Shown: positions 5,459 to 55,907 of the stretch, one piece after another
Position numbering within the stretch: the stretch's first letter is position 1
How the letters are laid out: every line of letters begins with the position of its first letter
IMG/VR virus record: IMGVR_UViG_3300046703_000247
Location: 1-64,000 of that record
Source: a virus
Direction: 5' to 3' (one strand)
DNA length: 64,000 nucleotides
Notes under the pieces: model-generated
What the model was told of the DNA's origin: nothing
Seen by the model: only the letters and a program-made list of their open reading frames with translations
Database searches by the model: none
Position numbers and translations under genes: made by a program

Positions 5459-5516
5459 GAAGGGAAGAAAAAGGTTCGGAAAAAGAAACCTCGGTTTCGT
5501 TTTCCGAGGCTTCGGC
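5459..5516 (+). repeat. Palindromic repeat copy 3 (forward)
   Basis: The inner stem is GAAACC/GGTTTC (5485-5490, 5494-5499) and the outer stem is CGGAAA/TTTCCG-like. The 3' arm GAGGCTTCGGC ends 31 nt before the start codon at 5548. Confidence 0.85.
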
Positions 5517-15651: not shown

Positions 15652-15997
15652 CTTCTATGCCGTACCTTTGGGAGACGGAACCCTGCGGTTCCTTCCCCCA
15701 AACCCGCTTCTTCCCTGATCCGAAAGGGAAAGGCTGGAGAAGTTCGAGTGTGGAACTCATGGCCCGATTGTGGAACTCCTGCAAACGAACCACGGAGTTG
15801 GGTAAGGCGGGCCGGGGCCAGAGTTCAATGAGACCGTTTGGCTGCATCCAGTACATCTGTGGTGCCAACGCTCCGTACGGGAAATATGGCGGAATGGCGC
15901 CCATCCTTCCCTTAGCTGGTGCGGCCACCTTCGACACCGGCACAGCCGGCGCGGCGGCCATCCCCAGCAGCATGCGGAGCAGCCCGCGGCGGTTCAT
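15635..15997 (-). CDS. Twin-arginine-leader protein of unknown function
   Basis: The 120-residue product begins MNRRGLLRMLLGMAAAPA, a Tat-type leader (Arg-Arg followed by a hydrophobic stretch and Ala-rich cleavage region). The mature part has PPYFPYGALAPQMYW and a short helix, without a recognised domain. About the last 25 residues (GKKRVWGKEPQGSVSQ onward) are encoded by repeat copy 4, so the original C-terminus was probably replaced. It overlaps the upstream Tat gene by 4 nt. Confidence 0.6.
   Translation of the reverse strand: MNRRGLLRMLLGMAAAPAVPVSKVAAPAKGRMGAIPPYFPYGALAPQMYWMQPNGLIELWPRPALPNSVVRLQEFHNRAMSSTLELLQPFPFGSGKKRVWGKEPQGSVSQRYGIEVKSRV
15661..15718 (-). repeat. Palindromic repeat copy 4 (reverse)
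   Basis: The inner stem is GGAACC/GGTTCC (15678-15683, 15687-15692), a paired A-to-G change relative to the GAAACC/GGTTTC copies. GGGAG and TTCCCCC form the outer stem. It begins 10 nt after the preceding stop and codes the C-terminal residues of the minus-strand gene at 15635. Confidence 0.85.
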
Positions 15998-16281
15998 GAT
16001 GTTCCTTCGGCACGCTGGCTGAACCGCGCGGGTTTGCGAACCTCCAAGGTATCCCCGATTTTCGGCCCTTTGAAGGCAAACTGGTTCTCATAATCGCGGT
16101 TTACCATTTTGGCGAATGCGAGATGCTTTTTAAGAATGGCCAGCATCTCCCTCGTGATTTCCGACTGAGTCAATAGTCGGTTTCCGGGCCACGGCAGCCG
16201 GGCAGCCAGAGTGTTGCGCAGTGGAAACGTGGCGGAGGCCGCAGCCCCCAAGAGAGCGCCGATGAACCCGCGCCGATTCAT
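15994..16281 (-). CDS. Tat leader fused to an N-terminal fragment of a P22-type major capsid protein
   Basis: The 95-residue product begins MNRRGFIGALLGAAASATFP (Tat leader). Residues ~36-90 (LTQSEITREMLAILKKHL, FAKMVNRDYENQFAFKGPK, KIGDTLEVRKPARF) match the N-terminal arm pattern of P22-coat-family capsid proteins, which typically read 'ITREAL..L...L.F...V.R.YD..FA..GAKIGD.L.IR.P.R'. A full capsid protein is several times longer, so this is a fragment, encoded opposite to the virion genes. It could be an exported decoy or a remnant. The match is from memory of the family. Confidence 0.65.
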   Translation of the reverse strand: MNRRGFIGALLGAAASATFPLRNTLAARLPWPGNRLLTQSEITREMLAILKKHLAFAKMVNRDYENQFAFKGPKIGDTLEVRKPARFSQRAEGTS

Positions 16282-16292
16282 GTCCCCATTCT

Positions 16293-16351
16293 AAGGGAAG
16301 AAAAGGTCCTAGGAAAAGAAACCGTAGGTTTCGTTTCCTGGAGCCCCGGCC
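16293..16351 (+). repeat. Palindromic repeat copy 5 (forward)
   Basis: The outer stem AGGAAA/TTTCCT and inner stem GAAACC/GGTTTC surround a GTA loop. It lies between the minus-strand Tat gene start (16281) and the plus-strand start 16371. Confidence 0.85.
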
Positions 16352-18979: not shown

Positions 18980-19003
18980 GTTTGCGCGAACGTTCTATTT
19001 TCT

Positions 19004-19063
19004 GAAGCCTGAAGGGAGCGAAACCCTGCGGTTTCTCTCCCTTCCAACCCACTCTTCCCTGAT
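19004..19063 (-). repeat. Palindromic repeat copy 6 (reverse)
   Basis: The inner stem is GAAACC/GGTTTC and the outer AAGGGAG/CTCCCTT. It starts 24 nt after the gp10-like stop. Confidence 0.85.
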
Positions 19064-24996: not shown

Positions 24997-25053
24997 GAAG
25001 GGAGAAAAAGGGTTTGGGAAAAGGAACCATAGGTTCCGTTTCCCGAGGCCCCA
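24997..25053 (+). repeat. Palindromic repeat copy 9 (forward)
   Basis: The inner stem is GGAACC/GGTTCC and the outer GGGAAA/TTTCCC. It ends 19 nt before ATG 25073. Confidence 0.85.
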
Positions 25054-26387: not shown

Positions 26388-26446
26388 GCCGAAGCCTCGG
26401 GGACGAAACCCGGCGGTTTCTTCCCCAAACCCCTTCATCCCTGATC
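26388..26446 (-). repeat. Palindromic repeat copy 10 (reverse)
   Basis: The inner stem is GAAACC/GGTTTC and the outer GGGGA/TCCCC-like. It begins 10 nt after the fibre stop and ends 4 nt before ATG 26450. Confidence 0.85.
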
Positions 26447-26449
26447 GCA

Positions 26450-26758
26450 ATGCCCAAGCTCAAAGGCGTCAGCAACTCCGAGGGCCAGCGTCTGGGCTAC
26501 ATGATGGAGTGCCCCGGCTGCGGCCAGTGGCACGTCATCTACACCGAACAAGCCAACGACCTCAAGGCCCGCTGGACCTTCGACGGAAACATGGAGAAGC
26601 CCACCTTCCACCCTTCCATTCTGTGCCGCTGGACCGAAGGCAAGGAGCAGGTGAAGAAGGTCTGTCACTTCTTTGTGCGCGCGGGCAAGATCGAGTTCTG
26701 CGGCGACTCGACACACGCGCTGGCGGGTAAGACCGTAGATCTACCGGACTGGAGTTAA
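26450..26758 (+). CDS. DUF6527-type zinc-ribbon-like protein
   Basis: The 102-residue product follows the DUF6527 pattern: CPGCGQWH (zinc knuckle), WTFDGNMEKPTFHPSIL, CHFFVRAGKIEFCGDSTHAL and VDLPDWS. Relatives are common in phages, often mis-annotated as ammonia monooxygenase; their role is unknown. ATG 26450 lies just after repeat copy 10, so no separate ribosome site is visible. Confidence 0.75.
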   Translation: MPKLKGVSNSEGQRLGYMMECPGCGQWHVIYTEQANDLKARWTFDGNMEKPTFHPSILCRWTEGKEQVKKVCHFFVRAGKIEFCGDSTHALAGKTVDLPDWS

Positions 26759-26764
26759 CTGCTA

Positions 26765-27088
26765 ATGCCAATCCCAGAAATGCTTTGGTGGCTGATCGTC
26801 GCGCACGCCCTCTGCGACTTCCCGTTGCAGGGCGACTTCCTGGCGCGCGGGAAGAACCACCGCGCTCCGATTGCCGGGGTGCCCTGGATTATCTGTCTCT
26901 TCTCCCACGCGCTGATTCACGGCGGAGCGGTGGCGCTCGTGACCGGCAGCGTCTTACTCGGAGCGGCCGAGACTGCCGCACACGCCTGGATTGACTGGGC
27001 CAAGTGCGACGGCCGCTACGGGTTCGCGGTGGACCAAGGGCTGCATCTGCTGGTCAAGGTCGGGTGGGTGATTTGGCTGACGCGCTAG
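26765..27088 (+). CDS. DUF3307-type integral membrane protein
   Basis: The 107-residue product has three to four hydrophobic segments and the family marks: AHALCDFPLQGDFLARGKN near the N-terminus, FSHALIHGGAVALV, AHAWIDWAKC, and a C-terminal DQGLHLLVKVGWVIW. DUF3307 proteins occur in bacteria and phages and have no known activity. It follows the DUF6527 gene by 6 nt. Confidence 0.75.
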   Translation: MPIPEMLWWLIVAHALCDFPLQGDFLARGKNHRAPIAGVPWIICLFSHALIHGGAVALVTGSVLLGAAETAAHAWIDWAKCDGRYGFAVDQGLHLLVKVGWVIWLTR

Positions 27089-27091
27089 AAC

Positions 27092-27406
27092 TCAGCCGTG
27101 CCGGTGCCGGCGAGCGCGGCGAGGAATCCATGGCGGTTCAGGGCTTCTTTTCATGGACACTTTCTTTCCCAATACAGGCTGGAAGCAGAAGGACGATTCA
27201 ACCACTTCCGTGATTCGGAACTGTGTCGGGTCCTCAAAGAACGTAACAATGTCCCCAACATTGAGAAATGCCAGACCATTGACCTGGCAAGCAGTTCCCG
27301 GCGGAATACATCCGAGAGACGGGATGCCGGCTGCCGGTGCGGGCTGCGGCAGCAGTGGCGCGGCAATCGCGCCCGCCAGCGCTCCGATGAACCCGCGTCG
27401 ATTCAT
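27092..27406 (-). CDS. Twin-arginine-leader protein, cassette E
   Basis: The 104-residue product starts at ATG 27406 with MNRRGFIGALAGAIAAPLLP, nearly the same leader as the gene at 15994. The mature part has two cysteines in a short loop (GCIPPGTAC) and a beta-like segment (NVGDIVTFFEDPTQFRITEV), ending in a run of Arg and His. It is convergent with the DUF3307 gene and lies next to repeat copy 11. The function is unknown; the leader predicts export of a folded protein. Confidence 0.6.
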   Translation of the reverse strand: MNRRGFIGALAGAIAAPLLPQPAPAAGIPSLGCIPPGTACQVNGLAFLNVGDIVTFFEDPTQFRITEVVESSFCFQPVLGKKVSMKRSPEPPWIPRRARRHRHG

Positions 27407-27423
27407 AAACCCATTCTGCCACC

Positions 27424-27479
27424 GAAGGGAAAAGAAAGGTTCGGAAAGAGAAACCTCGGTTTCGTTTTCCGAGGCCCCC
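27424..27479 (+). repeat. Palindromic repeat copy 11 (forward)
   Basis: The inner stem is GAAACC/GGTTTC and the outer CGGAAA/TTTTCCG, almost identical to copy 3. It ends 17 nt before ATG 27497. Confidence 0.85.
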
Positions 27480-29054: not shown

Positions 29055-32000
29055 ATGCCCCTTACCGATACCCCCGACAGCTTCGTGCCCGACGTTCCGA
29101 CCCCGGAAGAGGTCGAAGCCGAGTTGCGCGCGGCTGCCAAAGCCCACGGCCTCGACGAGGACCTGGCGCTACGTGTGGCCAACCGGGAAAGCCGGCTCAC
29201 GCAGTCCGCCACCTCCCCTAAAAAGGCGCGCGGAGTCATGCAACTGATGCCCGAGACAGCCAAAACCCTGGGCGTCGATCCAGAGGACTGGCAGCAGAAC
29301 ATCCAGGGTGGGGTGAAGCTCCTCAAGAGTAATCTTGACTACTACAAGGGCGACACCAGGAAAGCGCTCGCGGCTTACAACGCCGGACGCGGACCCGTCG
29401 ACAAGTACAACGGCGTTCCCCCCTACAAGGAAACCCAGGAGTATGTGGATAACATCCTCGGCAAGCCCGTAGCCCCGCCGCCGAGTTTCGAGCCGGATCC
29501 GCCCAGCTTCGAAGCGGACCAGCCGGTCACCATCCCCGGCCTACTTAAACCGGGCAATATCGACCTCACCGCCAGGCCCGTTCATAAGAACCCTGATGGC
29601 ACAACCTCAACAGTGCTTTCCATGAGGTTTGGCGAGGATGGCAAGGAAATACTGGTTCCCAAGGTCAGTGAGGATGGGACCTGGATACTGTCCGACGAAG
29701 AGGCGGTCGACACCTACCACAAAACGGGGAAGCACCTCGGGATCTTCAAGGATGTGCCCAGTGCGAACGCCTATGCGCAGCAACTCCACGAAGATTACGC
29801 CTCCGGAAGAATCAAGTTAAAGACCCCGGGGGCCGCTGACCCGCCCAGCTTCGAAGCGGACCAGCCGACTGCACTCCAGGTTCCCGCCCAGATCCCCAGC
29901 CGAGCCGAACTGGCCACGATGGGCGAGCGCTTGGGCGTCCTACGCATGACGCTCGATACTCAGGCCGAGCAGATGGCCCGCAACCGGGCCGCGCTCGAGG
30001 CCGAGGCCCAGCAGTTCACCCCCAAGACCCCTCCCGAGCAACTGGCGGCCTTCGACCAGAAGGTGAAGTTGCACAACCTGGACCTGGCCGAGTTCCAGAA
30101 CGCGGTCGCCGGGCACGCCAAAGACATCGAGGCGTACAACGCCGGGACGGCGGCGTTCAACGAGAACCTTGGGCGCTATGACCAGGCAATGAAGGTGCCG
30201 CCGGGCACCCAACGGACAGGACTCCCAGGAATGCCGCTCACCCGCATGCCGGTGCAGGTGCAGCCGAGCGGGGTGTTAGGCCTGGCTAAAGAGTCGCTGC
30301 CTTGGAAGATTGCCAACACCCAGGCATTCAAGGCGCTGGGATTGCCCACCACCGCCGACGCCTACGACTATTCGGTGGAGGCTGCGAAGAAACTTGTAGC
30401 GAAGGTGCTGGGTGAACCGAGCGAAACCACCGCCAGGAAGCACCCAGGCGTGGCAGCAACCCTCACATTCGGCGCGCGCGTTGCCCGCCTGTTCCCTGAA
30501 GTGGCCGACTTCATCCTGACGCCGGCGGGGACGGCTACGGCCATCGCGACCGCGGTCGCCCCTCCGGCGGTAGTCGCAGGTGTGGGCGCCGCCTTCAGCA
30601 CAGACATCGCCCTGAAGGCGAATGACGCCATCGAAGTAGCCCGGACCAACCCGACTCCCGAGAATATCGGGGAGGCCGTCAAGCTGTCGGCTATGGCTCT
30701 CTTGCCCTTCCTGCGGCCGGCGGCCGAGTTGGGCCGGAAGGTCGAACGCGGGATCGAACAGCACAACGTCCAGGCGGCCCAACTGGTGGAGCGGGAGCGC
30801 ACCCAGGGGTTAGGAAAAGAATGGGGGCAGGCCATCCTTGGGGAAGAGCCGGTCCGCGTCGAGATTGCGGGGAAGTCCCACACTATTCAGGCGCTGGGCG
30901 GGAATCCTGTTGCCGGTAGTGTCAGACCGCGTCCCACCTACCAAGTGGTGGATGATGCCACCGGCAAAGCCGTCTACTCGGGAGAAGCTCCGGCGGTCCA
31001 AGGTTATCTCGAACAGCAGCAGGCAGTTCGAGTCGGCGGGCTCGTAACATCTGTCGACCAGATCTCAGCGCAACTCGATACTGAGTATTCCAAAGCCGTG
31101 GCCGACCGCGCGGTGGCCCAATCGGTTCGGGACCAGATCAGACAACTTCAGAAATTCTCGCCCGAGCAACTGAAGGCCGAGCAAGCCAAGGGCAAGGTCA
31201 TCCTGGACCACGAGGCCGAACTCAACCAAAAAGGCGTAGCGGGGCTCTCGGAAACAGACCTGGTGGAGGTCCAACAGCACCTCCAGATGGTCGATGATCT
31301 ACTCGCCGGGAAGCCCATCAGCGACAACTTTGCCGAACAGGCCGTCAAGGAAGCCGACGCACATATCTCCGAAATTCAGAAGAAACGGGCACAACTCGGA
31401 GCCGAAGGCACGAAGCTCCCACAAGCGCAGCGGCCCGCCGCCCCCGGGCCCGCCGCTCCCGCCGTGATCGCCAAAGGCACCACCGTCGCCGGCGGGAAGA
31501 TCACGGTCACCGAGGTCAAAGGCGGCAAGGTCGGCTTCGAAAAGACCATGCCCGGCGGCCAGAAGATCCGCGGAACCATGCCGATCGAAGCCTTCCGGTC
31601 CCAGTTTCTTGCGACGTCGCAGCCTGTTCAGCCGCAGCCTACTGCTCAGCCGAAGCCTCGGGAGACGGAACCTACGGTTCCTTCTCCCAAACCCACTTTT
31701 TCCCTTTCGGAAGCCGAGCAGGCGCAGTACGACCAGGTCGCGGAGTTCGCCCGCACCGCCGGAAAGCCGCTCACCGACAAGTTGCTTTGGGAGAAGTTGA
31801 AGATTCCGCGCCACGAGGGCGCAAAGATCCTCGCGGTGATGAAGCAGCAGGGAGCGCTGGACCAGCAGGGGCAGCCGCAAGCTCTTTCGCCGCAGCCTGT
31901 TGTTCAACCGCAGCCTCCAGGGGCGAAACCTGCGGTTTCTCCCCTAGCAACCCCTCTTCCCTTGAACGCCGCCCCGGTCGGCCAAGCCTACCAGGGCGAG

Positions 32001-35000
32001 CTGGCGGGCGACTGGTCGCCCTACTACCGGACCATGGCCGAGGCGCAGGCCGCCGGCGCGAAGAACGTGCAACTCGGGGCGGCTCCGGAGGTATGGAACG
32101 GGCAGAAGTGGGCGGGGGCGGTATCAAATGATGCCAAGCAGCAGGCTCAGCCGCAGCCTCCAGGGGCGAAACCTGCGGTTTCTCCCCTAGCAACCCCTCT
32201 TCCCTCCGAACCCCAAACGCCCGCCCTTGAGGCGCTGAAGCGCCAAATGTCGGACTTCTACAGACGGCGCGTGCGCGTGAACGACCGCACCTTCGTGGGG
32301 GGCGTCTACAATCCCAATCGCTCCGAAGAGGAACGCCAAAGCATTGACGCCCAACTAGAAGAGATTGATTCCGAGGCGCGCAGTGTTCTGTCGAAGGTCC
32401 CACAGAACGACTTGCCCGAGCTAATGAGCGCGGACAACCGGATGCGGGTCCTTGAAGGGGACAATCCCCTAACCCGAAATGACAGAGGAGGCCCTGACTG
32501 GGCAGCGCAGGAATGGCTGAACCGGATTGTCGAGGTGACGCCGGAGCGCGCCGCATTGTCTGCGCCGACAAGCACCCCAGCCCCAGCAGGTAAGCAGATT
32601 GCCGCGCCCCAGCCCCCCGCTGTGCGCGCGCCGGCCCCCGCCGAGACTCCAGCATCCTTCGAGCCGGACACACTGCCCAGGAGCCTGGAACTGGAGCAGA
32701 AGCACGGTCTCTCACCCGCCGAGGCAGCCGTCATCAACCATGCGCTCGACCGCCTGCCCCAGGTTCGCAAGGACTACTCCAGCGCAGCGGAGGCACTTCA
32801 GAAGGAAGCCCTGCGGCTGGCGGCGCCGGCGAACGTCCCGCTCGACAAGATCGCCAACATCAAGTTGCTCAAGCGCATCCTGGCGGACTACCTCGACCCC
32901 GAGCAGTTTAGAGCCGCAGAGGCGCAGAACAAGGAACCCTGGCAGATGACGCGGGAGGAGTTCACCGCCCCGGTGCGTGAGGATCTGGCTCGTTGGAATT
33001 CGTCCTTCGATGAGTTGCGCGCCAAGAGAGGCGGGACTCGCGGACAGACCCCAGCACAGGCTCTCTTTGATGCGAAGCAGAAGCACGAAGAGGGAAGAAA
33101 GCCCTACCTCGAACGTATCGCGGAGACAGAGCAACTTCATGAGCGGAACATTCGCCGTGCGGTTGCAGACGGTAAACCCGTTCCGGCCGCAGTCCTAGCC
33201 GAGTACCCCGATCTGAAGCCCGCGCAAGCACTCGACCCCGACCAAGTCTACCGACGCGCACAGGCCGAGATGGAGCGGCGCCATCTGAAGCAGGGGCTGG
33301 AGCAGTTAATCGCCCTCGACCCCGACAACCCGCGTGAAGACGATCTTGGAGTTGGCAACGATCTTGAGGACGTAACAGGAAACCTGCAAAGCATCGGCTT
33401 CTCCAGACCGGAGATCCAGGCCGTACTGGAAGGCCGCCGCCAGCGGCTCCAGGCGCACCGTGAGCAATCCGCGCGCGCGGCTGAAGCCATCAAGCCGGCG
33501 ATGCCTGGGGGCGTGGTCTATGAAGCGGTGGGCAAGGCTGTGGGCGCTTCGCGCGATAAGAAGGACTCCCAGATGTTCGTGTGGCGCACGGACAGCGAGA
33601 AGCAGGGCTACGAGTTCCTGAACGCGCTGGGCAACAACCTCCAATATGGCCACAAGGATCTGCCGGCCGCCATTCGCGCGGTAGCCGAGCAGAACCCAGA
33701 TTGGACGGATCTATCAAAGACGGCTCTCACTGCGCTCGGAAGGGAAGAAGTGGTCTCGGAGAAGAAACCGCAGGTTGCGTCTCCGGAGTCTCAGCCGAAA
33801 GAAAAGCCCACCGAGTACGACTTCGCCTCCACCCAGGTGAACCTCCCGCCGGAGATCGCCCAGGCCATGCAGGAGTTCAACGCCCAGATCCCAGATGAAG
33901 ACCTGGCGGTAGAGGCGGGAGCCAAATACGGCGGGGAGACAGCCGCCAAGGGCCGCGAAGAACAGTCGCACGTCACCCTGCTCTACGGAATCAAATCCGA
34001 GAACCCGGACGCTGTGCGCAAGTTGCTGGAGAACCAGCCGCCCATCACCCTGAAGCTGGGCAAGACCTCGGTGTTCGCAGGAACCGACAACGGCGATGTG
34101 CTCAAAATCGACGTGGAATCAGAGGATCTGGAGCGGCTCAACAAGCTGTTGAAAGACAACCTGGAGTTCACCGAGACCCACCCAGGCTACAAGCCCCACG
34201 CCACGCTGGCCTACCTCAAGGTGGGGAAGGGCAAGGAGTGGAGCGGCAAGGACGTGCCGGGAGTCACCGGGAAGACTGTAACCCTGGACCGGATTGCATT
34301 CTCGGACAAGAGCGGGGAGCAGACATCTATCCAATTGAAAGGTGAGAAGCCGCAGACTACTCCTAAGCCGCAGCCTCGGGAGACGGAACCAACGGTTCCT
34401 TCTCCCAAGCCCGCTTCTTCCCTTTCGGAAATCCCGAAGCCGAAGGCCTACACCTTTGCCAATCACAAGTTCATGTCGGCGAAGGACAAGCAACTCACCT
34501 TCAAGGCGTGGATCACCTTCCTCCGCAACGGGCTACAACAGAAGGACTTCACCAAGCGGCTGTACGAGCAACTCCACCAGCACATGGGCTTCATCGCCCA
34601 CTACAACATCAACGGGTTCTACGAGGAGTACTTCCTGCACGGCGAGGACACCGAGCGGTTCATTCAGCACTTTGACCTGGCCGACCACCGCTACGGTCCG
34701 GACTCCACCAACGGATTCTGGATGAATAGTGACACCGCCAAGGATTTGAACCGCGCCATGGTGGATGAGGCGGCGCCGTATCTGCCCGGCCTGTTGGAGA
34801 AGGCGGCGGCGGGCCAGAAGGCCGAAGACCTGGCGGAAGCGCAACGGCTCCAGGCGAAGCACGGCGCGCCGGCGCCGGCGCCGGTTGTCACCCATAAACT
34901 TCAGGGCGGAGGGATCGTACAGGAGTTGAAGTCTCCGGAATTGCGTTTTCAGAAGAACGACCACGTTCGCTGGACCGACAAAGACGGAAATGCCAAAGAG

Positions 35001-38000
35001 GGATACGTCAGCCGCGTCGAGGGTCACCTGGTTTTCATCGGGACAGAGTCAGATCAGAAGTTCGGGATGTTCCGCCCGGTGATGGCGAGCAAGGTCGAAC
35101 TGATCGAGGATGAGGGCGACACCCCCACTCCGAAAAGGGATGAAGGGGTCGAGGGGAAGCAACCGCAGGTGGCGTCCCCTCGGGCTCCAGCCAAGACAGA
35201 AGCGCCCGCCAAGACCGGAGATATCGAGCGCCAGATCACCGAAGCTGAATCCGACTTGGCCGCCGCCCGTAAGCTCTACGAGGGCACCGAAGACGGAACA
35301 CTCGACCAGGAAGAAGCCATCCGGGAGATGCACCAGGCGCTGGCCGAGGTGAACCGCCTCCAGGCCGAAGCCGCCAAAGAGAACCCGCTCCTCACCGAAC
35401 AGGCCGAAGGCCGCCGTCAGACCATGCCCCCGATGCCCAAGGGCAAGGAGAGCCACTGGCAGCAGTTGATGGACGACTCCTCCGACCTGGGGGCCACCGC
35501 CGGCGAGGAGTACGTCGTTGACTACGGCCTATGGGTCGAGCGCGGCAAACCGGCAGGCAAGGAACCCGAGAAGCCCAACGCCGAGCGTGAGACCTCCATC
35601 GACCGCGGCGAATACCCCAAGGGTTGGCTGCGCCAGGCGGCCGCCGAGTTCCAGACCAGCTTTGATAAGGAAGTTGCCAAGGGGCTGAAGGAGATTGAGC
35701 AGGAGACCGCCAGAAACGCGGCGGGAGCGGCGGCCGACGCGGCGCGCGAGCTCGAGATCCGCAAGGCTGAGATTCAGGACCTGGCCGCCAAGTTGCGCGA
35801 GCACGCGAGCGGCGATCGCACCGACCTGGCGGAGCGCAAGCGGCTCGTCACCGCCGCCCTAGACCTGAAGACCGGCAAGAAGCTCAACGAGGACACCGAT
35901 GCGCTCTGGGAGCAAGCAATCCGCCCGGCCATCGAGGCGATCCGTCGCGCCGCGGTGGACAAGATTGAGGGCAAACAGATCACCCCTGACACCCCTGTCT
36001 GGGAGATGCGACCAGCGCAATACCTGGAGCACCGGCGCGAACAGGCGTTGCAGATTCCAAAGGGCAGCTTCCTCGAGCGCGAGCCCGGGGAGTGGCGCAC
36101 CGAGTTTCTGGTAACGCTGTCCAAGGAGGAACTTGGGGTATTGCTCCGCCTCAACGGTCTCCCCATAAACGGCACCAAAGCCATGATGGTGCAGCGCTTC
36201 CAGGATGCCCGCGCGTTGCGCAACCAGTTCGAGGGCAAGACGGCGGAGCAGATCGAAGAGGAGATGACTGGCGCGGAGATCGACCGCGCGCTGGAACAAC
36301 TCGGGGCGGGGAAGTACGGCAACAAGCTGACGCGGGCCGGGACAATCCTCGGCACCATTCAAAGCCAGCGTAAGAAGGGCGAGAGCGTCCTGGCTGAATT
36401 CAACTATCAGCGCGCCATCTATCGGGCAGTGGGGAAAGGCCAGCCGGTCCCCGAGGAGATCCAGAAGAAGTACGGCGCCTTCCAGACAATCGAGGATGTT
36501 GCCGCCGCAATTCCAGAAGAGGGGACCGCGGAACCAGACAAGAAAATCAGGATTGGCGACCGGGTCACATGGAAGGGATTCGACAAGGTTGTACGGGTCG
36601 GCACGGTCAGCCACATTCGCCACCACATAGAGAACGGCCGGGAGCGCAATACGCTGGAGATTGACGGCGACGACCATGGCCGCTACTTCCCTGACGACGT
36701 CGACGTCACGAAAGTAGCCGCCGAAACCAGGGATGAAGGGGGCGCGGGGGAAGCAACCGCAGGGTTGCGTCCCCAGCAGGCTCCGGCAGAAACACCCGCC
36801 GAACCGACGGAATACGCCTTGTCGGGCGACACCTACCGCTTCAAGAACATCATCCGGGCCCAACTGCAAGGCAAGTGGAACGGCAAAGAAAAGGTGTGGA
36901 TTATCCCCGCCAGCCAGGTGGAGGCAGCCCGGAAACTCTCAAAGAAGATCGAGGTGAAGCCCTTCGGGCAGGTGAAGACAGCCCCCGCCCAGCCGCCCAT
37001 GGACGAGCAGACCGCCTCGGCCGTCATCCAGGATCTGGTCAAGACCATCTCCGAAGCCCAGGAAGAGGTGCACTTCGCGCAGAACGACAAGGACACCGAC
37101 AAAGGCGCAAGCACTCAGGCAAACGAGGCCAAACTGGCTACGGCCGTCAAGGATCTGCGGAGCGTGGTAACGGAAGCCAAGAAGTACTTGGACTTTCCAA
37201 ACGCACCGGAGAGCGATAGGGAAGCTTTGCGGACTCAACTCTACCGCGCCGAGCAAAACCTCAGAGGATATGAGCGCCCCGGCCCCTCCATCAACCAGAC
37301 CATCGAAGCCGAGAAGTACGTTGAGAAACTGACGGGTCCCGAGCAGACCTACGCGGCGAAGTACAAGGACTACTGGCTGGGAAAGATCGCCGAAGAGCCT
37401 CCCTACGTCGGCGTCCACATCAACCCGCTGCGCGCTGAAGGCATCCGGACACATCTAAAACACGTCCTCGGAAAACGGGTAGAGGTTACCGGCGGGCCGG
37501 AAGCTACGAAGCCCGCGACCGAGACGCGCGTCCCCAAGTGGGGCAACCTCACAGAATTGGAAGCTGAGCTGCTCCGCGGCCTCAATAGACCACAGCCTAT
37601 TGGTGATCTCTTTGATTCGATCGGTCAGCATTGGCCTGATTCCGAGAAAATCAAGGTGCTTCATGCACTCGACAGCCACGGTCTGGTAAAAGCCATCCAC
37701 GGCGGCGGGTACGAGCGCACCGAGGCGGGCACCGTCGCAATCGGCAAAGGACCGGCGGAAGCGTATCTTCCGAAGGGGACCGCGCCGGCGCCTGCACCGA
37801 AGGGCAGCTTCAAATACGAGTTCCAGGTGCACGGCGAAGGCGGCAAGTGGAGCGACAACGCCCTGCGCTTTGCCACCGAGAAGGAAGCCCAAGCAGCCGG
37901 AGATGAGCACCTTACGCGCTGGACCATGGCCGATGCGGTCCGGGTGGTGCCGTCCGAGGATGCGCCTAACTACCGCTGGGACGACGACCAGTACAAATCC

Positions 38001-41000
38001 GTCCGGCTGTCCGGGAAGGAAGAGGGGGTGCAGGGGGAGAAACCGGAGGTTTCGCCTCCTGAAGCGCCGGCCCCAACAGTTGAGGAAGCCCTGGCTATCA
38101 TCGAGAGAAAAGGCTCAGCCCATTGGGAAGACACTACCATCAAGGTGGTTCCACACCCATCGGTTACCGGGATGGTCGACACCGATGGAACCAGCTTCTC
38201 AGTAGAAGTGACCCGGAATGGGGAGCGCAACATCATCGAAGCCGCCCCTCTGTCCCTGGAAGATGCCCAGAAAAAAGCTGCCCGGATGCTGGTGGAACGC
38301 GCAAAACTTCCGCCACTCGGCAAAAAACAGAGCATAATGGAGGCGGAGCAACCCAATGCCCCAGGTGGAATACAGCAGCCCGTTCGTTCAACTGGTGCTC
38401 GACCAGTGGAAGAACAACTTCCCGAAGGAAGCCGAGCGCCTGGAGAAGCAGGGAACGCTCCTCAAGTGGGCCGAGTACGCGACCAAGCGGGCGGGCGCGG
38501 TACACGAGCAGGCGCTGGCAAACGGAGCGAGCTACACCCAGGCGGAGGATCTGTCCCTACCCGAGTGGGGCCAGCCACCGACGTTGAACGATCCCTCCCT
38601 CCCCGTTCCCGAGACGTAGCCAACAACCGCCACGAGCACGACTTCCGCATTCCGGACCGGCGTGTCATTTCCGGATCCCCTGAAACCCGGGCGAAAGCCA
38701 ACCTCGCAGCCATCCGCCTGTTGCGCGAAATCCAGCAAGACAACCGCGCCGCCACGGTCGAGGAGCAGGAGACCCTGGCGCGGTACGTCGGATGGGGCGC
38801 CGTTCCGCAGTTGTTCGCCGGCAACACCTCAGAGTGGAAGGCGCTCCAGAACGACCTGCGCAAGTCGTTGAGCGAAGAGGAGTACTCTCTCGCCCAGAAT
38901 TCCACCAAGAACGCCCACTACACGGGAGATGAGGTGGTGGATGCCATGTGGGCCACGCTCGAGCGGATGGGCGCCACGCCGGGCATGAACTGGCTGGAGC
39001 CCGCGGTGGGAGTCGGGAACTTCTTCGGCCGGCAGCCGGAGGCCTTGCTCGCGGGTTCGCGACGAATCGGAATCGACAAGGATTCGCTTTCCGCACAGAT
39101 TGCCACGCTGCTCTACCCGGACTCGGGCATCCAGAACCAGCCCTTCGAGGAAGCCGAACTCCCCAAGGACTACTTCGACGCCGCCATCTCAAACGTGCCC
39201 TTCGCCGATGTTAAGGTGCACGACCCTGAATTCCGCAACAAAATATACCTGAGATCGAGCGTTCACAACTACTTCTTTGCAAAGACTTTGGGCAATGTGA
39301 AGCCGGGCGGCATCGTGGCCTTCATCACTTCTCACTACACCATGGACGCCTACGGCCAAGAGGCCAGGGCTTTCCGGAAGTGGATCGCTTCACAGGCCGA
39401 TTTCCTCGGCGCCGTGCGGCTGCCCTCGAACGCCTTCATGCAGAGTTCGGGCACCCACGTCATCACCGACATCGTCTTCCTACAGAAGCGACTGCCCAAC
39501 GCTGCGCCCGCCGGCGAGGATTGGGTGGAGACGGTGAACAAGACGCTCTCCGGGCAGTGGGGCGTGTATCCCGTAACCACCAACGCCTACTACAAGCGGC
39601 ATCCCGAACACCTTCTGGGAGAGGAGAAGCTGAAACGCGGCCAGTTCTCAGACCATGATTACTTTGTGGAAGGGGAACTGACGCCGGCCGCCCTGAAGAA
39701 AGCCCTCTCCAAGATCCCCGGCCAGTTCCAGCAATGGCAGACAGGGGCGACGGCCCCCCGGCGGATCGCCCTGCGGGAGATTCGCGCAGAATCCGACAAG
39801 GCCAAGCTCGGAGCCCTCTTCTTTGATGACAAGGGCGACCTGTTCCGCAAGACCAGCAAGGGATCCGCTGAGCCGATTCCCGTGAGTGCGGATGCCAAGC
39901 AGAAGATCAAGGGTCAGTTGGAATTGCGCAACGCCTACGCGGAGCTGCTCGAGCTCGAGCGCAAGGATGCCCCCGAGGCGGCGCTCGATAGCGCCCGCAA
40001 GCGGCTCAACCGGATGTACGACAAGTACGTCGCCGAGCACGGCCCCTTATCGAGCCGAAGCAACACGGAGCTGCTCAAGGGAGATCCGGACGCCCCGCAC
40101 GTCGTCAGCCTGGAGCGCAAGTGGGACCCCAAGACGAAGACCGCCGAGAAGTCCCCGATTTTCAAGCGCCGCATGCTCCAGCCGCCCAAGGCCCTGGAAC
40201 ACACCGCCGACGCCAAAGATGCTCTTTACGTCTCCCTGAATCAGACCGGGCGGATTGACTTCGAGCGCATGGAGAAGTTAACCGGCAAGGGAAGCACCCA
40301 ACTCCAGAGCGAGTTGAAGGGCATCATCTACCAGGACCCGACCAGCCGCGAGTGGGAGATGGCCGACGAGTATCTCTCCGGAGCGGTGCGCACGAAGTTG
40401 CGCCAAGCCCAGGCCGTGGCCAAATTGGAGCCCGAGTTTGAGGAGAACGTCAAGGCGCTCGAACAGGTGCAGCCCGACGACATTCCGCCGGCACAGATCA
40501 GGGTCGCACTGGGCGCAACCTGGGTTCCGATCGATATCTACACCGAGTTTGCAACGCACATTCTGAACAGCTCGACCGACACCCCGGTCCGCTACGTGGC
40601 GAACCACTGGCACGTGGATGAGCCCTACTACAGTTCCGCCCGGTCCAAGAGCCAGTGGGACACCGGCCGCATGAATGCCCACCAGATCCTGGAAGGCTCC
40701 CTCAACATGACGCGCCTCAAGGTCCACGACTGGGACAGCGATAAGAAGCGGGATGTTATCAACCAGCCGGAAACGGCCGCGGCGCAGGCCAAGCAGCAGG
40801 AGTTGCAGACCTACTTCGAAAGATGGCTTCTATCTACCGAGGCCGCGCGCACGGACCAGATGGTGCGCCTCTACAACGATGCGAAAAACGACCTCCGCCT
40901 CCCGACCTTTGACGGCTCCCACCTGACCCTTCCGGAAATCGTTCGGGATCCGCAGATTGTGACGGGCGGCGATCTGGCACCCCACCAGAAGAATGCCGTT

Positions 41001-44000
41001 TGGCGCGGCATCAAGCAGCGCAATGTGCTCCTGGCCCACTGGGTAGGAACCGGCAAAACCTTCGAAGGCATCACCATCGGCATGGAGCTGAAGCGGCTGG
41101 GTCTCATCCAGCGGCCGATGTACGTGGTTCCGAACGCCACCCTGGGCGGTTGGCAGTTGCAGTTCAACCAACTCTACCCGCAGAAGCGCGTCATTGTTTT
41201 CAGCGAGAAGGACCTGGAGAAGGAAAACCGGCGGGCCACTATCGCGCGCATCGCGGGCGGCGAGTGGGACGCGGTTGTCATGCCCGAGTCCAGTTTCCGG
41301 TTCATCCGCACCGGCGACGAGATCTTCAACCAGCATTTTCAGCGTCTCCAGGAAGAATTGGACACCTCCATCCAAGAGGCTGAGGGCGCCGGGATGGACA
41401 CCCGGATGATTAAGCGCATGGAAAAGATGCGCGACAAGCTGCTCACGGCCCTGCAGGATAAGCGCAACGCGGAGCGGCAGGATCAGACCATCATCTGGGA
41501 GCAGTTGGGGATCGATTGGCTGTTCGTGGACGAATCCCACCACTACCGCAAGTTGGGGTTCTCAACCAAACAGCAGAACATCGCCGGCATCGATGTGAAC
41601 GGCAACCAGATGACGTTCGACCTGCTCATGAAGATGCGGCACGTCCAGACGACCGGGCGCGGAGTGGTCTTCGCCACGGGTACACCGATTGTCAACACCA
41701 TTGGGGAAATGTACTCTCTGATGCGCTACCTGATTGAGCCGGAAATGCAGGCGCGCGGCATCGGCCGCTTCGATGAATGGTCGGCCGACTACGCCCGGAC
41801 GGTCCCCGTGTTCGAACCGAAGGTGGAGGGTGGCGGCTACCGGATGAAGGACCGCTTCGCCCGCATCGTCAACATCCCCGAGTTGGCGAACCTGTTCCGC
41901 TCCTTCGCCGATGTGGTCACCAATGACATGGTAGACCTAAAGATCCCGGGTTTGGCGGGAGGGGAACGCAAGAGCATCCTGACGGACTTGAGCGACGAGC
42001 AGACTCAATATCTGGAAGAAGATCTGCGACCCCGCGGGGCCGCTATTCGCCACAACCCCCGGGATGCCATGCCGGACAACATGCTGGCTGTCTATACCGA
42101 CGCCGGCAAGATGGCATTGGACATCCGGACGGTAATGCCGCACGCCAAAGAGGACCCCGGCAGCCGGCTGAACAAAGCCGCCGAAATCATCTTCCGCGAC
42201 TGGCAGGACAGCGCGAAGACGAAGGGCGTACAGGCCATATTCTGCGACTGGGGCAAGCCCAACAGCGCGCGCCCCCTTGCGGATCGCGGGCAGTTCTCGG
42301 TGTACGACGAGCTGATTCGAAAGCTGATTAAAAAAGGCATCCCGCGCGAGCAGATTGCCACTATCTATCAGGCGAAAGGGAAGGACCAGCGGGCCCGGCT
42401 CTTCCAGCAGGTGAACGAGGGGACCATCCGGATCATCCTCGGTTCCACGAAGAAGCTCGGTGAAGGCGTAAACATTCAGGAGCGCCTATATTCCCTTCAT
42501 CACCTGGACCTGCCGCACACGCCCTCGGAACTAGACCAGCGCGAAGGCCGCGCCCTGCGCCAAGGGAACACCAACCCCGACGTGCGGGTGTACTACTACA
42601 TGACCCGGGGCTCACTCGACGAAATGAAGTTCGCCAACGTCCTGCGTAAGGCGAAGTTCATCCTGGCCATGATGCAGGGCAAGGCCACGGTACGCGAGGC
42701 CGACGACGTGGGCGGTATGATCCCCTCTCTTGAGATGTTCCAGGCGGCCACCTCGGGGGATCCGCGCGTGCTGAGGAAGATGGAGGTTGACGCCGAAGTA
42801 GCGCGCCTCGAGGCCATTCACTACGCCTGGCGGAATCAGCAATGGGACGAGCGGCGCCAGTTGGCGGACCTGCCTGGCAGAATCAGTCGCTTTGAAACTA
42901 CCATCTCCAATTCCCGAAGTGACATCGCCCTGCGGGACGCGCACCTGCCGGGGGTGTGGTCGGTCCGCGGGCAGACCTATGAAGGCAAAACTCCGGAAGC
43001 GGCGAAGGCACTTGCCGAGTACTCCAACAGCAGGCGAAGGGAGCATGACGCGGATCTGAAAACGGAGATGGCCAAGGCTATAGCGGAAGGCGGTGAAGAC
43101 GCCAAGAAGGTCCGCGCGCTACAGAATCGAGCCTTTACAGAAGCGGGGAAGCGCTTTCCTCCCGAGATCATCGCTGAATACGCCGGTTTCAAGATCCGGT
43201 TTGATCCCATTGATGGGGCAATGACCATCGTTGGCGAAGGGTCCGCATACGGGATGGAGCGGCAGGACACCGCGACAGGCACGCTCGCGAGCGCAGCCTA
43301 CTTCATTCACCACCATTTTGAAAAGGCCATCACCAGTGCCGAAGAGGACATTGCCCGCGCCAGGCGCGACGAGGAACAGTTGCAGATCTCTGTCGGAAAG
43401 TCCTGGCCCTATCAGAAGCAGTTCGACAACCTGGTTGCCGAGCAGGAGACCCTGACTCACGATTTGGGCGGCGATCACGGAGACCCCGGCGCCGCTCTGC
43501 TCGAGGATGGGGAGGAAATAGAAGACAAGCGGGTGGAAGCCGAGGAGACGGCAGAGTCTGGAGACGAGGCCCAGCCGGAGCAGCCGCACCCAACCACACC
43601 CAATCCACCTACGCCGGGCCGGCGGCCGGGAGCAGCTACGCAATCCCGCCGCTCCAGCCAGGCCGGCGCGGCCAGCCTCGATCTGCTCACCCTGGGAGCG
43701 CCCAAGTTCATCCAAGAGGATGTCGCCCCAGCCCTCGGCAGGGTCGCCCAGAACTTTGTGGCGGTCAAAAACGAGATCTTCACGATTATCGCCCCGGCCG
43801 CTCGCGGGCCCGCCGCCAAACAAACTGCCCTCTCCGTGCGCTACCGGGCGGCCGAGTTGGCCCAGAAGACGGACCGTGCCCTGGCCGCCCTCAAGGAAAC
43901 CCGCCGCTACTTCGACTCGCTGCCCGAGTGGAACCGGTTGGAGTTCATGGACCGCATCGAAAACGGCCAGCAGCAGATCTATCCACAGGAGGACGCGATT

Positions 44001-48135: not shown

Positions 48136-48164
48136 ATCTGCATCATCCTGCCTTTTTGCTGCTA

Positions 48165-48221
48165 CTCCAGGGGAACGAAACCTCACGGTTTCTTTCCCCT
48201 CGCCCCCTTTCATCCCTTCGG
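48165..48221 (-). repeat. Palindromic repeat copy 20 (reverse)
   Basis: The inner stem is GAAACC/GGTTTC and the outer AGGGGA/TCCCCT-like. It starts 29 nt after the peptidase stop and ends 13 nt before ATG 48235. Confidence 0.85.
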
Positions 48222-49007: not shown

Positions 49008-49338
49008 CAATAATAGGCGGTGTCACCTGCTGCATGACTCGTTCCATCGCCAACTCGTCGTAGGCGCTGAGCCGCTCCTGCAAGTGTTCAAAGGCGTTTT
49101 CACAGCAGCGCAGCACGTCCTCACACCAGCGGATCTTTTCTCTCTCCATCTCAGCCTTGCTCCAGAAATCCAGTTGACGAGGGACCAGAAACATCCGCTC
49201 CTGCGTCAACGCTAGGATTTGCCGCGCCAGTTGGTGCGCCACTGTTGGAGGGGGCGGCAGACGCATGCGCGGCTGAAGGGATGAAGGGGCTTCCGGGGAA
49301 GCAACCGCAGGTGGCGTCCCCGGAGGCTGCGATTTCAC
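48979..49338 (-). CDS. Small helical protein with repeat-encoded N-terminus
   Basis: GTG 49338 overlaps the previous stop (GTGA). Of the 119 residues, about the first 20 (PPGTPPAVASPEAPSSLQP) are read from repeat copy 21. The rest is a long charged helix with a cysteine pair (ILALTQERMFLVPRQLDFWS, CEDVLRCCENAFEHLQERLS). A downstream Met could be the original start before repeat insertion. The function is unknown. Confidence 0.5.
   Translation of the reverse strand: MKSQPPGTPPAVASPEAPSSLQPRMRLPPPPTVAHQLARQILALTQERMFLVPRQLDFWSKAEMEREKIRWCEDVLRCCENAFEHLQERLSAYDELAMERVMQQVTPPIIVRPTSAAKE
49273..49331 (+). repeat. Palindromic repeat copy 21 (forward)
   Basis: The outer stem is CCGGGGA/TCCCCGG and the inner GCAACC/GGTGGC (one mismatch), closely like copy 17. 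It is read on the opposite strand as the N-terminus of the gene at 48979. Confidence 0.82.
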
Positions 49339-49845: not shown

Positions 49846-49905
49846 GGAAGGGAAGAAAAGGTTCAAGGAAAAGAAACCGCAGGTTTCGTGTCCTTGGGCT
49901 CCAGC
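49846..49905 (+). repeat. Palindromic repeat copy 22 (forward)
   Basis: The inner stem is GAAACC/GGTTTC and the outer CAAGGA/TCCTTG (perfect). It lies between divergent genes and ends 15 nt before ATG 49921. Confidence 0.85.
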
Positions 49906-52624: not shown

Positions 52625-53332
52625 GTGGCAACAACGGAAGGAGCAAGCACCCAAGCGGGGGGATACCTTCGCTTCCAAACCAACATCCCCGAAGAGGTGG
52701 CCCTGCGCTACGCCGAGGGGAAACAGGTCAAATCGCAGAACAAGGCCCCCGACGGGACACCCTGGCCCGACCAGTTGATGTTCTCGTTGGTAGACGGCCG
52801 CGTGATGTACGTTCCCCTGCACGTGGGGGAGATCATCCGCGAATTGGGCATCGGCCCCGGAGAGCGGATCAGCATCGGGAAGTTCGAAGTCAAACAGGGG
52901 AACCGGCGCGGAACCCAAATCCAAATAAAGCGGGTGGACCCGCCCGCTGAGAAGCCGGCGGCGCCGGCTGCCCCCCAGGCGGCGAAGCTAGAAGGGGCAG
53001 CGGCACGGCCAGGAACTCCAGTGCGAACCGGAACTCCAACCCAGTCTACCGCGAACGGTAATGGGAACGGAACGGCTCCGGTGAACGGCAAACCGCCGGT
53101 GAACGGCAACGGAAACGCAGCCGCAATCCCCACTAAGGTGCAGTTCGGCGACGCCATGCAGGAGTTCCTGGTGCTGGCCGGCCGCGCCACCAAGGGAGCG
53201 GAAGTCACGCTCGGCGCCGAGGGCGGCAGCGTCCGGTTCGACAGCCGGGACATCGCCGCAACCGCAACCACCATGTTCATCGAGGCGGCCCGCAACGGCT
53301 GGCTGACCTGGAGACCGGGGGGTGTGCGATGA
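52625..53332 (+). CDS. Early protein, possible OB-like nucleic-acid-binding
   Basis: GTG 52625 has AAAGGAG and a strong promoter upstream. The 235-residue product has an N-terminal beta domain of ~95 residues (YLRFQTNIPEEVALRYAEGK, RVMYVPLHVGEIIRELGIGP), a low-complexity linker of Pro, Ala, Asn and Gly, and a C-terminal helix pair. Its coupling to a RecB/Cas4-type nuclease suggests a DNA-binding partner; this is inferred from context. Confidence 0.6.
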   Translation: MATTEGASTQAGGYLRFQTNIPEEVALRYAEGKQVKSQNKAPDGTPWPDQLMFSLVDGRVMYVPLHVGEIIRELGIGPGERISIGKFEVKQGNRRGTQIQIKRVDPPAEKPAAPAAPQAAKLEGAAARPGTPVRTGTPTQSTANGNGNGTAPVNGKPPVNGNGNAAAIPTKVQFGDAMQEFLVLAGRATKGAEVTLGAEGGSVRFDSRDIAATATTMFIEAARNGWLTWRPGGVR

Positions 53333-54315
53333 CGCCCACCAACGGCCACTCGACACAATTCAGCTTTATCGACCGGATCGCCCTGCTGTTCGGCGGCTCG
53401 TTCGAGGAGCGCATGGCCCGGCTCGAAAAGACCGTGGCCGAAGGGACGGATAGGGTCCAGGGGAAGGAAACCGTAGGTGTCCTTCCCTTGGAGTCTCAGC
53501 CCCAAATACTGCCAGTCCTAGCAGTATCCCCGCAGCCCGACCTCGGTCTGAACATGGAAGTAGCCGAGATCCTGAGTCCCTCGCAGGTGAACAACTACCT
53601 GAACTGCTCAGCCTCGTGGTACTTCAAGTATTTCCGCAACCTACCCGACAAGACCGACGCCAAGCGCGCGCTAGGTAAAGCAGTCCACTCAGCCCTGGAG
53701 GGCAACTTCCGCCAGAAGATCGAGACGAAGAAGGATCTGGGCAGGGAAGAGTTGCTCGAGGCTTTCGCCTTGGCTTGGAAGAAGGAAGCCGAACTGGCGC
53801 AGTTCTCGGAAGGCGACGACCAGGCCGAACTGGAGCGGACCGGCACGGTGCTGGTTCAGAAGTACCTCATCGAAGCGGCGCCGGAGATCACGCCGATCGC
53901 CGTCGAGCACCCGGTCTCGGGAGTAATCGCCGGCGTGAAGGTCCGAGGGTACGTCGACCTGATGGACTCGAACGGCAGAATCGTAGACCTGAAGACCTCC
54001 TCGAAGAAGCCGAGCGAGATCACCCCTGGCTACAAGCGCCAGTGCACCACCTACACGCGCATCATGCCCGGCGCCTCGGGCAAGGTGACGGTCCAGACCC
54101 TGGTCCGCACCAAGACCCCGCAACTGGCCGAGCAGCACCTGACGGTCGGCCCGGAAGACGTCCGCCACATCGAAGTGATGTTCCCTCTCGTGCAAGAGGC
54201 CATGAGATCCGGCTTGTACACACCCAACCGCGAGAATATGTTCTGCTCCAAGAAGTCGTGTGCCTTCTGGAAATCCTGTCAGGACGAGTACGGTGGAGAG
54301 GTGCCGGAGTCATGA
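53329..54315 (+). CDS. PD-(D/E)XK nuclease, RecB/Cas4-type with Fe-S cysteines
   Basis: The 328-residue product overlaps the previous stop (ATGA). The conserved residues are in place: His120 (GKAVHSALE), Asp210 (GYVDLMD), Asp220-x-Lys222 (IVDLKTSS) and Gln238/Tyr242 (RQCTTY). Cysteines 93, 306, 311 and 317 form the pattern of an Fe-S-bound nuclease. It probably processes DNA ends in phage recombination or replication. Repeat copy 23 encodes ~20 residues (38-58) between an N-terminal helix and the nuclease core. Confidence 0.85.
   Translation: MTPTNGHSTQFSFIDRIALLFGGSFEERMARLEKTVAEGTDRVQGKETVGVLPLESQPQILPVLAVSPQPDLGLNMEVAEILSPSQVNNYLNCSASWYFKYFRNLPDKTDAKRALGKAVHSALEGNFRQKIETKKDLGREELLEAFALAWKKEAELAQFSEGDDQAELERTGTVLVQKYLIEAAPEITPIAVEHPVSGVIAGVKVRGYVDLMDSNGRIVDLKTSSKKPSEITPGYKRQCTTYTRIMPGASGKVTVQTLVRTKTPQLAEQHLTVGPEDVRHIEVMFPLVQEAMRSGLYTPNRENMFCSKKSCAFWKSCQDEYGGEVPES
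53440..53501 (+). repeat. Palindromic repeat copy 23 (forward, in frame)
   Basis: The long stem CCAGGGGAAGGA/TCCTTCCCTTGG has one G-U pair, and its bases differ from other copies while pairing is kept. It is read in frame in the nuclease gene as DRVQGKETVGVLPLESQ. Confidence 0.85.
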
Positions 54316-55141: not shown

Positions 55142-55152
55142 CGCGACCAGGG
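55142..55152 (+). repeat. 11-bp direct repeat near the recombinase, copy 2
   Basis: Second CGCGACCAGGG, running straight into palindromic repeat copy 24. Confidence 0.5.
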
Positions 55153-55205
55153 AAGAGGGGTTCCAGGGGAGAAACCGTAGGGTTTCGCCCCTTGGGGCTC
55201 CGACC
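55149..55205 (+). repeat. Palindromic repeat copy 24 (forward)
   Basis: The stem is CCAGGGG/CCCCTTGG plus GAAACC/GGTTTC. It ends 39 nt before ATG 55245 of the recombinase. Confidence 0.85.
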
Positions 55206-55244: not shown

Positions 55245-55907
55245 ATGCGAGCTGCGATCTACGCCCGAGTGAGCACCCTCGATCAGAACTGCCAGATGCA
55301 ACTGAAGGAACTCCGTGAGTACTGCGAGCGCCGAGCGTGGACCATCTCAGGCGAGTACGTCGACACCGGCTGGTCTGGCGCCAAGGCCTCGAGGCCGGAA
55401 CTGGACCGGATCATGCACGACGCCGGCCAGCATCGGTTCGACGCCATCCTGGTCTGGAAGCTGGACCGCTTCGGCCGCTCGGTGTTGAACCTCTCCGAGC
55501 AGCTCGCCCGGCTGAGCTCCTGGGGGATCCGCTTCCTGGCAACCACGCAGGCCCTAGACACAGATGCCTCGAACCCGACGAGCCGCCTGATGCTGCACAT
55601 CCTGGCCTCGGTGGCGGAGTTCGAGCGTGAGATGATCCGGGAGCGCGTAAGCGCCGGCCTGAAGAACTACCGCGAGGCGTTCAAGCAGAAGCGGATTGGC
55701 CGCGATCGCCACAGCCACAGCGGCATGAACTTGGCAGTCGGCAGGCCGAAGAAGATATTCGATCGTGAGCGAGTGCTGGAGATGCGAGACGGAGGATTCT
55801 CGGTCCGCGCGATCGCGCACAAGTTCAAGATTGGCGTTGCAACCGTACAACGGCTGGTTTCGGCGCATAAAAAGGCTAAAAAGGGGCGTTCCAAAACCCC
55901 ACGTTGA
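55245..55907 (+). CDS. Serine recombinase (resolvase/invertase type)
   Basis: The 220-residue product has the nucleophile Ser10 in AIYARVSTLDQ and the catalytic-site arginines in WKLDRFGRS (Arg75, Arg78). SRLMLHILASVAEFEREMIR lies at the dimer helix, and a C-terminal helix-turn-helix is present (VLEMRDGGFSVRAIAHKFKI, GVATVQRLV). The length fits the small resolvase/invertase group rather than large serine integrases. It could invert or resolve phage DNA, or integrate. Short direct repeats lie on both sides. Confidence 0.9.
   Translation: MRAAIYARVSTLDQNCQMQLKELREYCERRAWTISGEYVDTGWSGAKASRPELDRIMHDAGQHRFDAILVWKLDRFGRSVLNLSEQLARLSSWGIRFLATTQALDTDASNPTSRLMLHILASVAEFEREMIRERVSAGLKNYREAFKQKRIGRDRHSHSGMNLAVGRPKKIFDRERVLEMRDGGFSVRAIAHKFKIGVATVQRLVSAHKKAKKGRSKTPR
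55885..55898 (+). repeat. 14-bp direct repeat, copy 1
   Basis: GGCGTTCCAAAACC lies inside the last codons of the recombinase gene and recurs at 55957, 72 bp on. Confidence 0.5.

Follow-up and report, generated by a model that had tools for sequence, protein, structure and literature searches.

A dispersed hairpin repeat inside and between genes of a soil phage

The DNA analyzed here (the window, 64,000 nucleotides) comprises positions 1-64000 of an 83,233-bp viral record, the soil phage IMGVR_UViG_3300046703_000247, and carries the gene of a giant multi-domain protein together with a short repeat that lies both between genes and, in frame, inside them. Since the record also encodes terminase, portal, and major head proteins, it represents a tailed phage. 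The repeat is about 58 nt long, forms a hairpin, and is found in 31 copies on both strands of the 83-kb record, 25 of them in the window (Table 1). Its core, GAAACCTGCGGTTTC (up to three mismatches allowed), has an expected count of 2.0 in the window and an observed one of 26, which none of 100 shuffles equaled, and each of the eight copies in the giant gene is recovered by nhmmer, with E values of 2e-11 to 9e-17. Copies 31908 and 32150 are recent duplicates of each other (98% over 59 nt), and copies 31649 and 34367 share 85% identity across 98 nt. No Rfam family scored above its gathering score within the window, and exact-pattern scans with a long motif of the repeat gave zero matches.

Repeat copies as linkers of a giant polyvalent protein

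The product of the giant gene matches phrog_10089 (DarB-like; 2.9e-300) and, among Pfam domains, SLT (1.5e-21), 2_5_RNA_ligase2 (9.5e-8), SAP, and Helicase_C. Its order is an N-terminal SLT transglycosylase, a 2H phosphoesterase, SAP, and then a DarB-like methylase-helicase part, and on these matches we classify it as a DarB-type polyvalent protein. The initial annotation had placed eight repeat copies in frame in this gene, in both orientations and in more than one reading frame, and had read them as linkers between domains. Both nhmmer and translation agree on the copies, and the linker peptides that it quoted are correctly translated. The four plus-strand copies share one frame and three minus-strand copies a second, while in copy 36729(-) different loop and arm lengths cause the frame to change within the element. 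The encoded peptides are rich in Pro, Glu, and Gln.

The linker role is borne out by homologues that exist as separate proteins and stop at the repeats. Almost the whole of a 192-aa open reading frame (ORF) from a huge phage aligns to the 2H module, aa 1583-1765 of the giant protein, and a Maribacter phage has the same domain as a gene of 161 aa. The second module is matched by a 170-aa protein of a Roseomonas plasmid, whose alignment covers aa 1792-1949 and starts two residues past a repeat. Stand-alone homologues of these two modules start or stop 2-6 residues from a repeat, so that what a repeat separates here are unrelated genes elsewhere. This supports a role of the repeats as inter-domain linkers at the module joints of the giant protein.

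We then have the comparison with a close relative, G367 (87.8 kb, largely syntenic, terminase 70% identical), whose orthologous giant reading frame encodes 5,579 aa. The initial annotation had expected linkers to be absent or different where domains are conserved, and the two proteins follow this pattern: domains beside the joints are 56-65% identical, and most linkers are unrelated. Two repeats are common to both genes, at the same place and in the same orientation (31908+ and 38018-), one is private to G367, and at most of the others found here G367 has an unrelated linker. G367 also lacks aa 1764-1943, which comprise repeat 34367 and the plasmid-type module, and aa 2050-2586, the module that the direct copies 35134- and 36729- enclose. 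The earlier proposal that the repeats may have served to shuffle modules is supported by these two repeat-bounded modules, which would have been either gained here or lost in G367. Outside the giant gene, two intergenic repeat sites bracketed by syntenic genes hold no repeat in G367.

Translation of the repeat is not confined to the giant protein. Twelve of the 31 copies are translated, in five proteins: besides the eight in the giant protein, repeat-coded peptides are found at the C-termini of the portal and of an 82-aa protein, and in a PD-(D/E)XK nuclease and a DNA methylase (Table 1). In the homologues of these four proteins in G367, G003, or G006 the repeat-coded parts are absent.

That the repeats avoid stop codons in the frames used, as had been stated earlier, was half right. 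Copies are indeed stop-poor: of their six frames, 83% are open within the giant gene and 82% in the remaining copies, compared to 57% for shuffled sequences and 68% for ordinary DNA between genes. Given that openness is equal inside and outside, stop-poverty is intrinsic to the repeat and not due to the frames used, and selection in the giant gene need not be assumed. The repeat is fit for translation in most frames through its composition and structure.

Table 1. Repeat copies and associated features, in window coordinates.
Position	Strand	Feature	Remarks
732-786	-	Repeat copy, intergenic	nhmmer
5170-5227	+	Repeat copy, intergenic	nhmmer
5459-5516	-	Repeat copy, intergenic	Start codon 32 nt further on
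15659-15717	+	Repeat copy	Close to gene ends
16293-16350	-	Repeat copy, intergenic	9-nt perfect pyrimidine mirror TTCTTTTCC TAGGA CCTTTTCTT
19002-19060	+	Repeat copy	Right behind stop codon
20382-20443	-	Repeat copy	30 nt ahead of start codon
24927-24982	+	Repeat copy	Immediately behind stop codon; convergent with 24997; syntenic G367 site empty
24997-25053	-	Repeat copy	20 nt ahead of start codon
26388-26442	+	Repeat copy	Behind stop codon; with 27424(-), encloses a two-gene segment (left end)
27424-27478	-	Repeat copy	19 nt ahead of start codon; right end of two-gene segment 26388-27478
29055-46415	+	Giant polyvalent protein gene	5786 aa, single open frame; ORF, Pfam, phrog
31649-31706	+	Repeat copy, aa 865-884 (QPKPRETEPTVPSPKPTFSL)	Unrelated P/Q-rich linker in G367
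31908-31964	+	Repeat copy, aa 952-970 (PQPPGAKPAVSPLATPLPL)	Orthologous copy in G367
32150-32205	+	Repeat copy, aa 1032-1051	Duplicate of 31908; absent in G367
33739-33792	-	Repeat copy, aa 1562-1580	Immediately N-terminal of 2H phosphoesterase module
33795-34364	+	2H phosphoesterase (LigT-like) module, aa ~1583-1765	In other phages, a gene of its own
34367-34424	+	Repeat copy, aa 1771-1790	Joint of 2H module and following module
34425-34884	+	Module, aa ~1792-1943	Stand-alone 168-170 aa plasmid protein; absent in G367
35134-35191	-	Repeat copy, aa 2027-2046	
35193-36728	+	SAP-containing module flanked by two direct repeat copies	aa 2050-2586 absent in G367
36729-36787	-	Repeat copy, aa 2559-2578	Frame switches inside element
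38018-38071	-	Repeat copy, aa 2988-3006	Ahead of DarB-like part; orthologous copy in G367, arms and third strand changed
48158-48218	+	Repeat copy	Outside giant gene
49276-49332	-	Repeat copy	Outside giant gene
49848-49905	-	Repeat copy	Outside giant gene
53441-53500	-	Repeat copy in N-terminal part of PD-(D/E)XK nuclease (53329-54315)	G367 homologue without repeat
55149-55204	-	Repeat copy	Upstream of serine recombinase gene (55245-55907)
60077-60138	+	Repeat copy, C-terminal extension (antisense) of N6/N4 DNA methylase (60033-61847, -)	G367 homologue stops where repeat begins

Covariation of a proposed third strand with the hairpin

On the strand with the pyrimidine tail, the repeat consists of a flank (GCCGNAGCC), outer arm, C, inner arm, loop, inner arm, T, outer arm, spacer, tail, and TCCCT. 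The hairpin thus has an outer arm of about 5-8 bp, a nearly fixed mismatch, an inner arm of 6 bp, and a loop of 2-4 nt. Outer arms vary (GGGAGA, GGAAAA, GGGGA, GGGG, and others), as do inner arms (GAAACC, GGAACC, GCAACC, GCCACC), and the outer arms show Watson-Crick covariation (z 8.3-10.7). The pyrimidine tail, in turn, mirrors the 3' arm of the hairpin, i.e. it has the sequence of the arm read backwards, in a fixed register. Mirror matches in this register were found at 132 of 155 positions in the 31 copies of the phage itself (permuted: 95.6 ± 5.3; z 6.9) and at 195 of 225 in all 45 copies (permuted: 136 ± 6.3; z 9.4). None of 20,000 permutations reached the observed value, and with a shift of two bases z dropped to 1.3-1.6. 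A first version of the test, in which the tail was free to match anywhere, gave a weaker signal and raised the direct-copy control too, and the fixed-register test was used instead.

Joint changes in arm and tail were also seen between the 22 nearest-neighbor (sister) pairs of copies (odds ratio 22, p 3e-9; about 1-3 in shifted registers), an effect close to that for the Watson-Crick arms in the same pairs (odds ratio 30, p 2e-10). When the arms are at odds, it is mostly the 3' arm that the tail matches. At the orthologous site, copy 38018(-) has GAGGGGG-TGCA-GGGGGAG, and its counterpart in G367 (54153) has GAAGGGG-TCGA-GGGGAAG, the pairing arms having changed as well; this symmetric change may have come about either by descent or by gene conversion. 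Such coordination of three strands across copies and relatives suggests selection on the folded DNA or RNA itself, and the tail may well be an intramolecular third strand (triplex), given that it follows the duplex sequence, as judged by sequence covariation only. This covariation, and the copies translated in four other proteins, go beyond the initial annotation. In G367, the hairpin of the giant-gene repeat at 56552-56632 (L194:16552-16632) is enlarged, and the mirror of this repeat is perfect over 7 nt (GAAGGGG-CCGC-GGGGAAG).

The two strands differ in their mismatches. A.C mismatches on the pyrimidine-tail strand, equivalent to G.U on the other, number 28 vs 3 for the reverse, a count in which related copies are included and so are the outermost pairs, the least certain ones; restricted to the inner and the first five outer pairs, the numbers are 10 vs 2 (p 0.04). 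The folded strand is therefore probably the purine-tail strand.

Placement and spread of the repeat

Copies lie beside gene boundaries, and one orientation is preferred. In a set of seven viral records, the gene boundary is at a median distance of 21 nt on the flank (5') side and of 105 nt on the tail side (Wilcoxon p 0.003), distances that rest on our own gene calls. Along the record, orientations alternate above expectation (23 runs vs 16.4, p 0.011), and convergent pairs lie at shorter distances than divergent pairs (p 0.004). Gaps between copies differ greatly, with examples of 10 kb and of 11 bases. A division between A-rich arms ahead of starts and G-rich arms behind stops is evident by eye in this phage; overall it was not significant (p 0.07) and was discarded. 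Small genes inside convergent pairs resemble insertable cassettes (26388-27478 and 15659-16350 in the window, 76257-76639 in the record). In G000, G001, and G003 a repeat precedes the serine recombinase gene, always in one relative orientation; in G006 and G367 there is none. The product of this gene is a candidate for the enzyme that spreads the repeat. The repeat itself is probably not a serine-recombinase crossover site, as the 2-4 nt loop variation between half-sites argues against it, and an intrinsic terminator is ruled out by the occurrence in both orientations and by the C-rich tail.

Six further soil viral records, with little gene content in common, hold copies that are 80-90% identical. 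The bacterial occurrences found are in three Acidobacteria genomes, always within one kind of insertion sequence (IS)-like leader, which hints at an Acidobacteria host. One metagenome-assembled genome has 11 identical copies with near-identical leaders, as part of an IS-like repeat. A high-copy origin in bacteria was rejected, the element being present in 3 of 61 genomes searched around G010 and in 1 of 297 in a wider draw from the phylum.

The IS-like unit of Acidobacteria (L060:2297-3925 (-), L021, L049) has the left end CTAGCCAAA, with the hairpin repeat between this end and the gene. Its 543-aa protein has no match in Pfam or NCBIfam; by eye, and from upstream sequence only, distant homologues (L073, L081, L082) seemingly lie beside a four-helix-bundle (Avd/S23-like) gene. 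In Patescibacteria (L030:5654-5749, L032:4457-4481, L057:825-849) there is a similar core hairpin, GGGACGAAACCTACGGTTTCTTCCC, without a mirror tail, which in L030 occurs twice, 71 nt apart. Short hairpins in genomes of the candidate phyla radiation and of Oscillospiraceae, alike in their core and without a mirror tail, were not counted as members.

Relation to known systems

The initial annotation had likened the repeat to Rickettsia palindromic elements (RPEs), palindromic repeats found in frame in unrelated proteins and also in intergenic DNA (reviewed in PMC10969869). The likeness holds for in-frame translation in unrelated genes, seen here for 12 of 31 copies in five genes. RPEs differ in being bacterial, about 100-150 bp long, and reported to end in CGTC (PMC3733652), whereas the phage repeat has about 58 nt, no such tag, and a covarying third strand. 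The tags GTAG and CGTC were found in the 12-nt end windows of 2 and 2 of the 31 copies, respectively, with a background of 15%.

Repetitive extragenic palindromes (REPs) and REPINs, which go with REP-associated tyrosine transposases (RAYTs), are likewise high-copy small palindromes near gene ends, sometimes intragenic, with a hairpin and a short tail; the phage repeat differs by its longer bipartite stem, its mirror tail, and the missing GTAG or CGTC tag. The Y1 (HUH) transposase domain PF01797 was absent in G000-G006, records that are possibly incomplete, and was present in the three Acidobacteria genomes without being tied to the repeat. On the missing tag and the missing Y1 transposase in the phage records, membership in the REP/RAYT system was rejected. 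Miniature inverted-repeat transposable elements (MITEs) are also small, non-autonomous, and dispersed, and can give translational fusions, but the phage repeat is a single hairpin instead of two terminal repeats and has no transposase partner in the phages. A MITE with target duplication was discarded (mean best length 2.84 vs 2.65 at random sites). As to a MITE origin, the repeat lies near the left end of the IS-like unit encoding the 543-aa protein in one Acidobacteria genome, with a similar leader in two others, and the phage copies lack the ends of that unit.

The giant protein, with its SLT, 2H phosphoesterase, and DarB methylase-helicase domains, has the multi-domain make-up of the polyvalent proteins of phages and conjugative elements, for which cassette recombination has been suggested in a text that makes no mention of linkers (PMC5512222). 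Here, the joints hold a dispersed DNA repeat, a physical candidate for the joining of modules. With H-DNA (intramolecular triplex) the repeat shares a polypurine-polypyrimidine mirror repeat and a short loop; it differs in that the mirror is short (7-10 nt), joined to an inverted repeat within a repeat family, and supported by covariation. Our literature search, among open-licence papers, found nothing on such repeats in phages.

Weighing the explanations

The explanation that we favor, with moderate confidence, is a phage-borne family of short structured repeats. The element would spread or be copied as a folded single strand (the purine-tail strand), its tail folding back as a third strand, and would settle at gene edges. 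Being stop-poor in every frame, it could there fuse adjacent reading frames through flexible Pro/Glu/Gln-rich linkers, and recombination between copies might then add, drop, or swap modules of the giant protein. Several observations weigh against this. Neither a transposase nor a target duplication was found, the phage records with the repeat have no Y1 transposase, and mobility is therefore something we infer. Taken by themselves, the copies of this phage show no significant preference of orientation (12 vs 8). The third strand has patterned exceptions, namely an isolated arm T opposite a tail A or G, and an inner-arm C-G pair opposite a tail A. Read on the other strand, they become T (or C) opposite A-T, and T opposite C-G, and under triplex pairing rules they fit a purine-motif third strand better, which would make a purine motif on the purine strand the better candidate. 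At the orthologous site, gene conversion of whole copies might look like descent with change, and the one-strand excess of G.U suggests which strand folds without discriminating RNA from DNA. Finally, there is only one close relative with the giant protein, and module gain and loss can therefore not be polarized.

It is rather unlikely, in our judgment, that the repeats are instead fixed functional sites (for transcription, packaging, replication, or recombination) at gene edges, the copies in the giant gene being relics of separate genes that fused. Such sites would account for the gene-edge placement with a preferred orientation, for the three-part structure retained even at an orthologous coding copy, for the constant position and orientation ahead of the serine recombinase in G000, G001, and G003, and for a 2H module that is flanked by repeats like a free gene, their 5' sides facing it at 3-6 residues. 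Yet the syntenic intergenic sites of G367 and most terminase relatives have no repeat, and spacing is very uneven; empty sites and repeat-less relatives speak for free loss, which is unexpected for a required site. We give still less credit to a purely selfish short repeat, tolerated, with neither function nor triplex, whose mirror merely reflects the shared ancestry of a few subfamilies. Tolerance of such insertions is known from Rickettsia palindromic elements and intragenic REPs (PMC10969869, PMC3733652), and purine/pyrimidine bias does produce frequent partial mirror matches (permuted mean 95.6/155), but the fixed-register effect drops at a shift of one or two bases and holds in nearest-neighbor contrasts, and the orthologous pair changed symmetrically. 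Hardly any weight is left for the idea that the linkers are ordinary Pro/Ala-rich low-complexity segments resembling the repeat through DNA composition only. The peptides are Pro/Glu/Gln-rich and some G367 joints have similar-looking unrelated linkers, but E values go down to 9e-17, both orientations and several frames are used, and the same repeat lies in intergenic DNA on both strands; the excess of core copies over shuffles and the nhmmer matches refute this reading.

Returning to the family of structured repeats, we put forward more tentatively that it may be a new class of mobile or selected phage element, in which a hairpin with a co-evolving third strand, an intramolecular triplex encoded in the genome, doubles as a protein linker and as an exchange joint in the assembly of giant polyvalent proteins. 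How modules of giant polyvalent proteins are joined becomes a testable question, with repeats at the joints and a relative without the repeat-bounded modules. Protein-coding palindromes are best known from Rickettsia, and a phage example with empty sites in relatives broadens their range. A natural case of a third strand covarying with a hairpin is unusual, and would allow triplex function to be studied in a living system.

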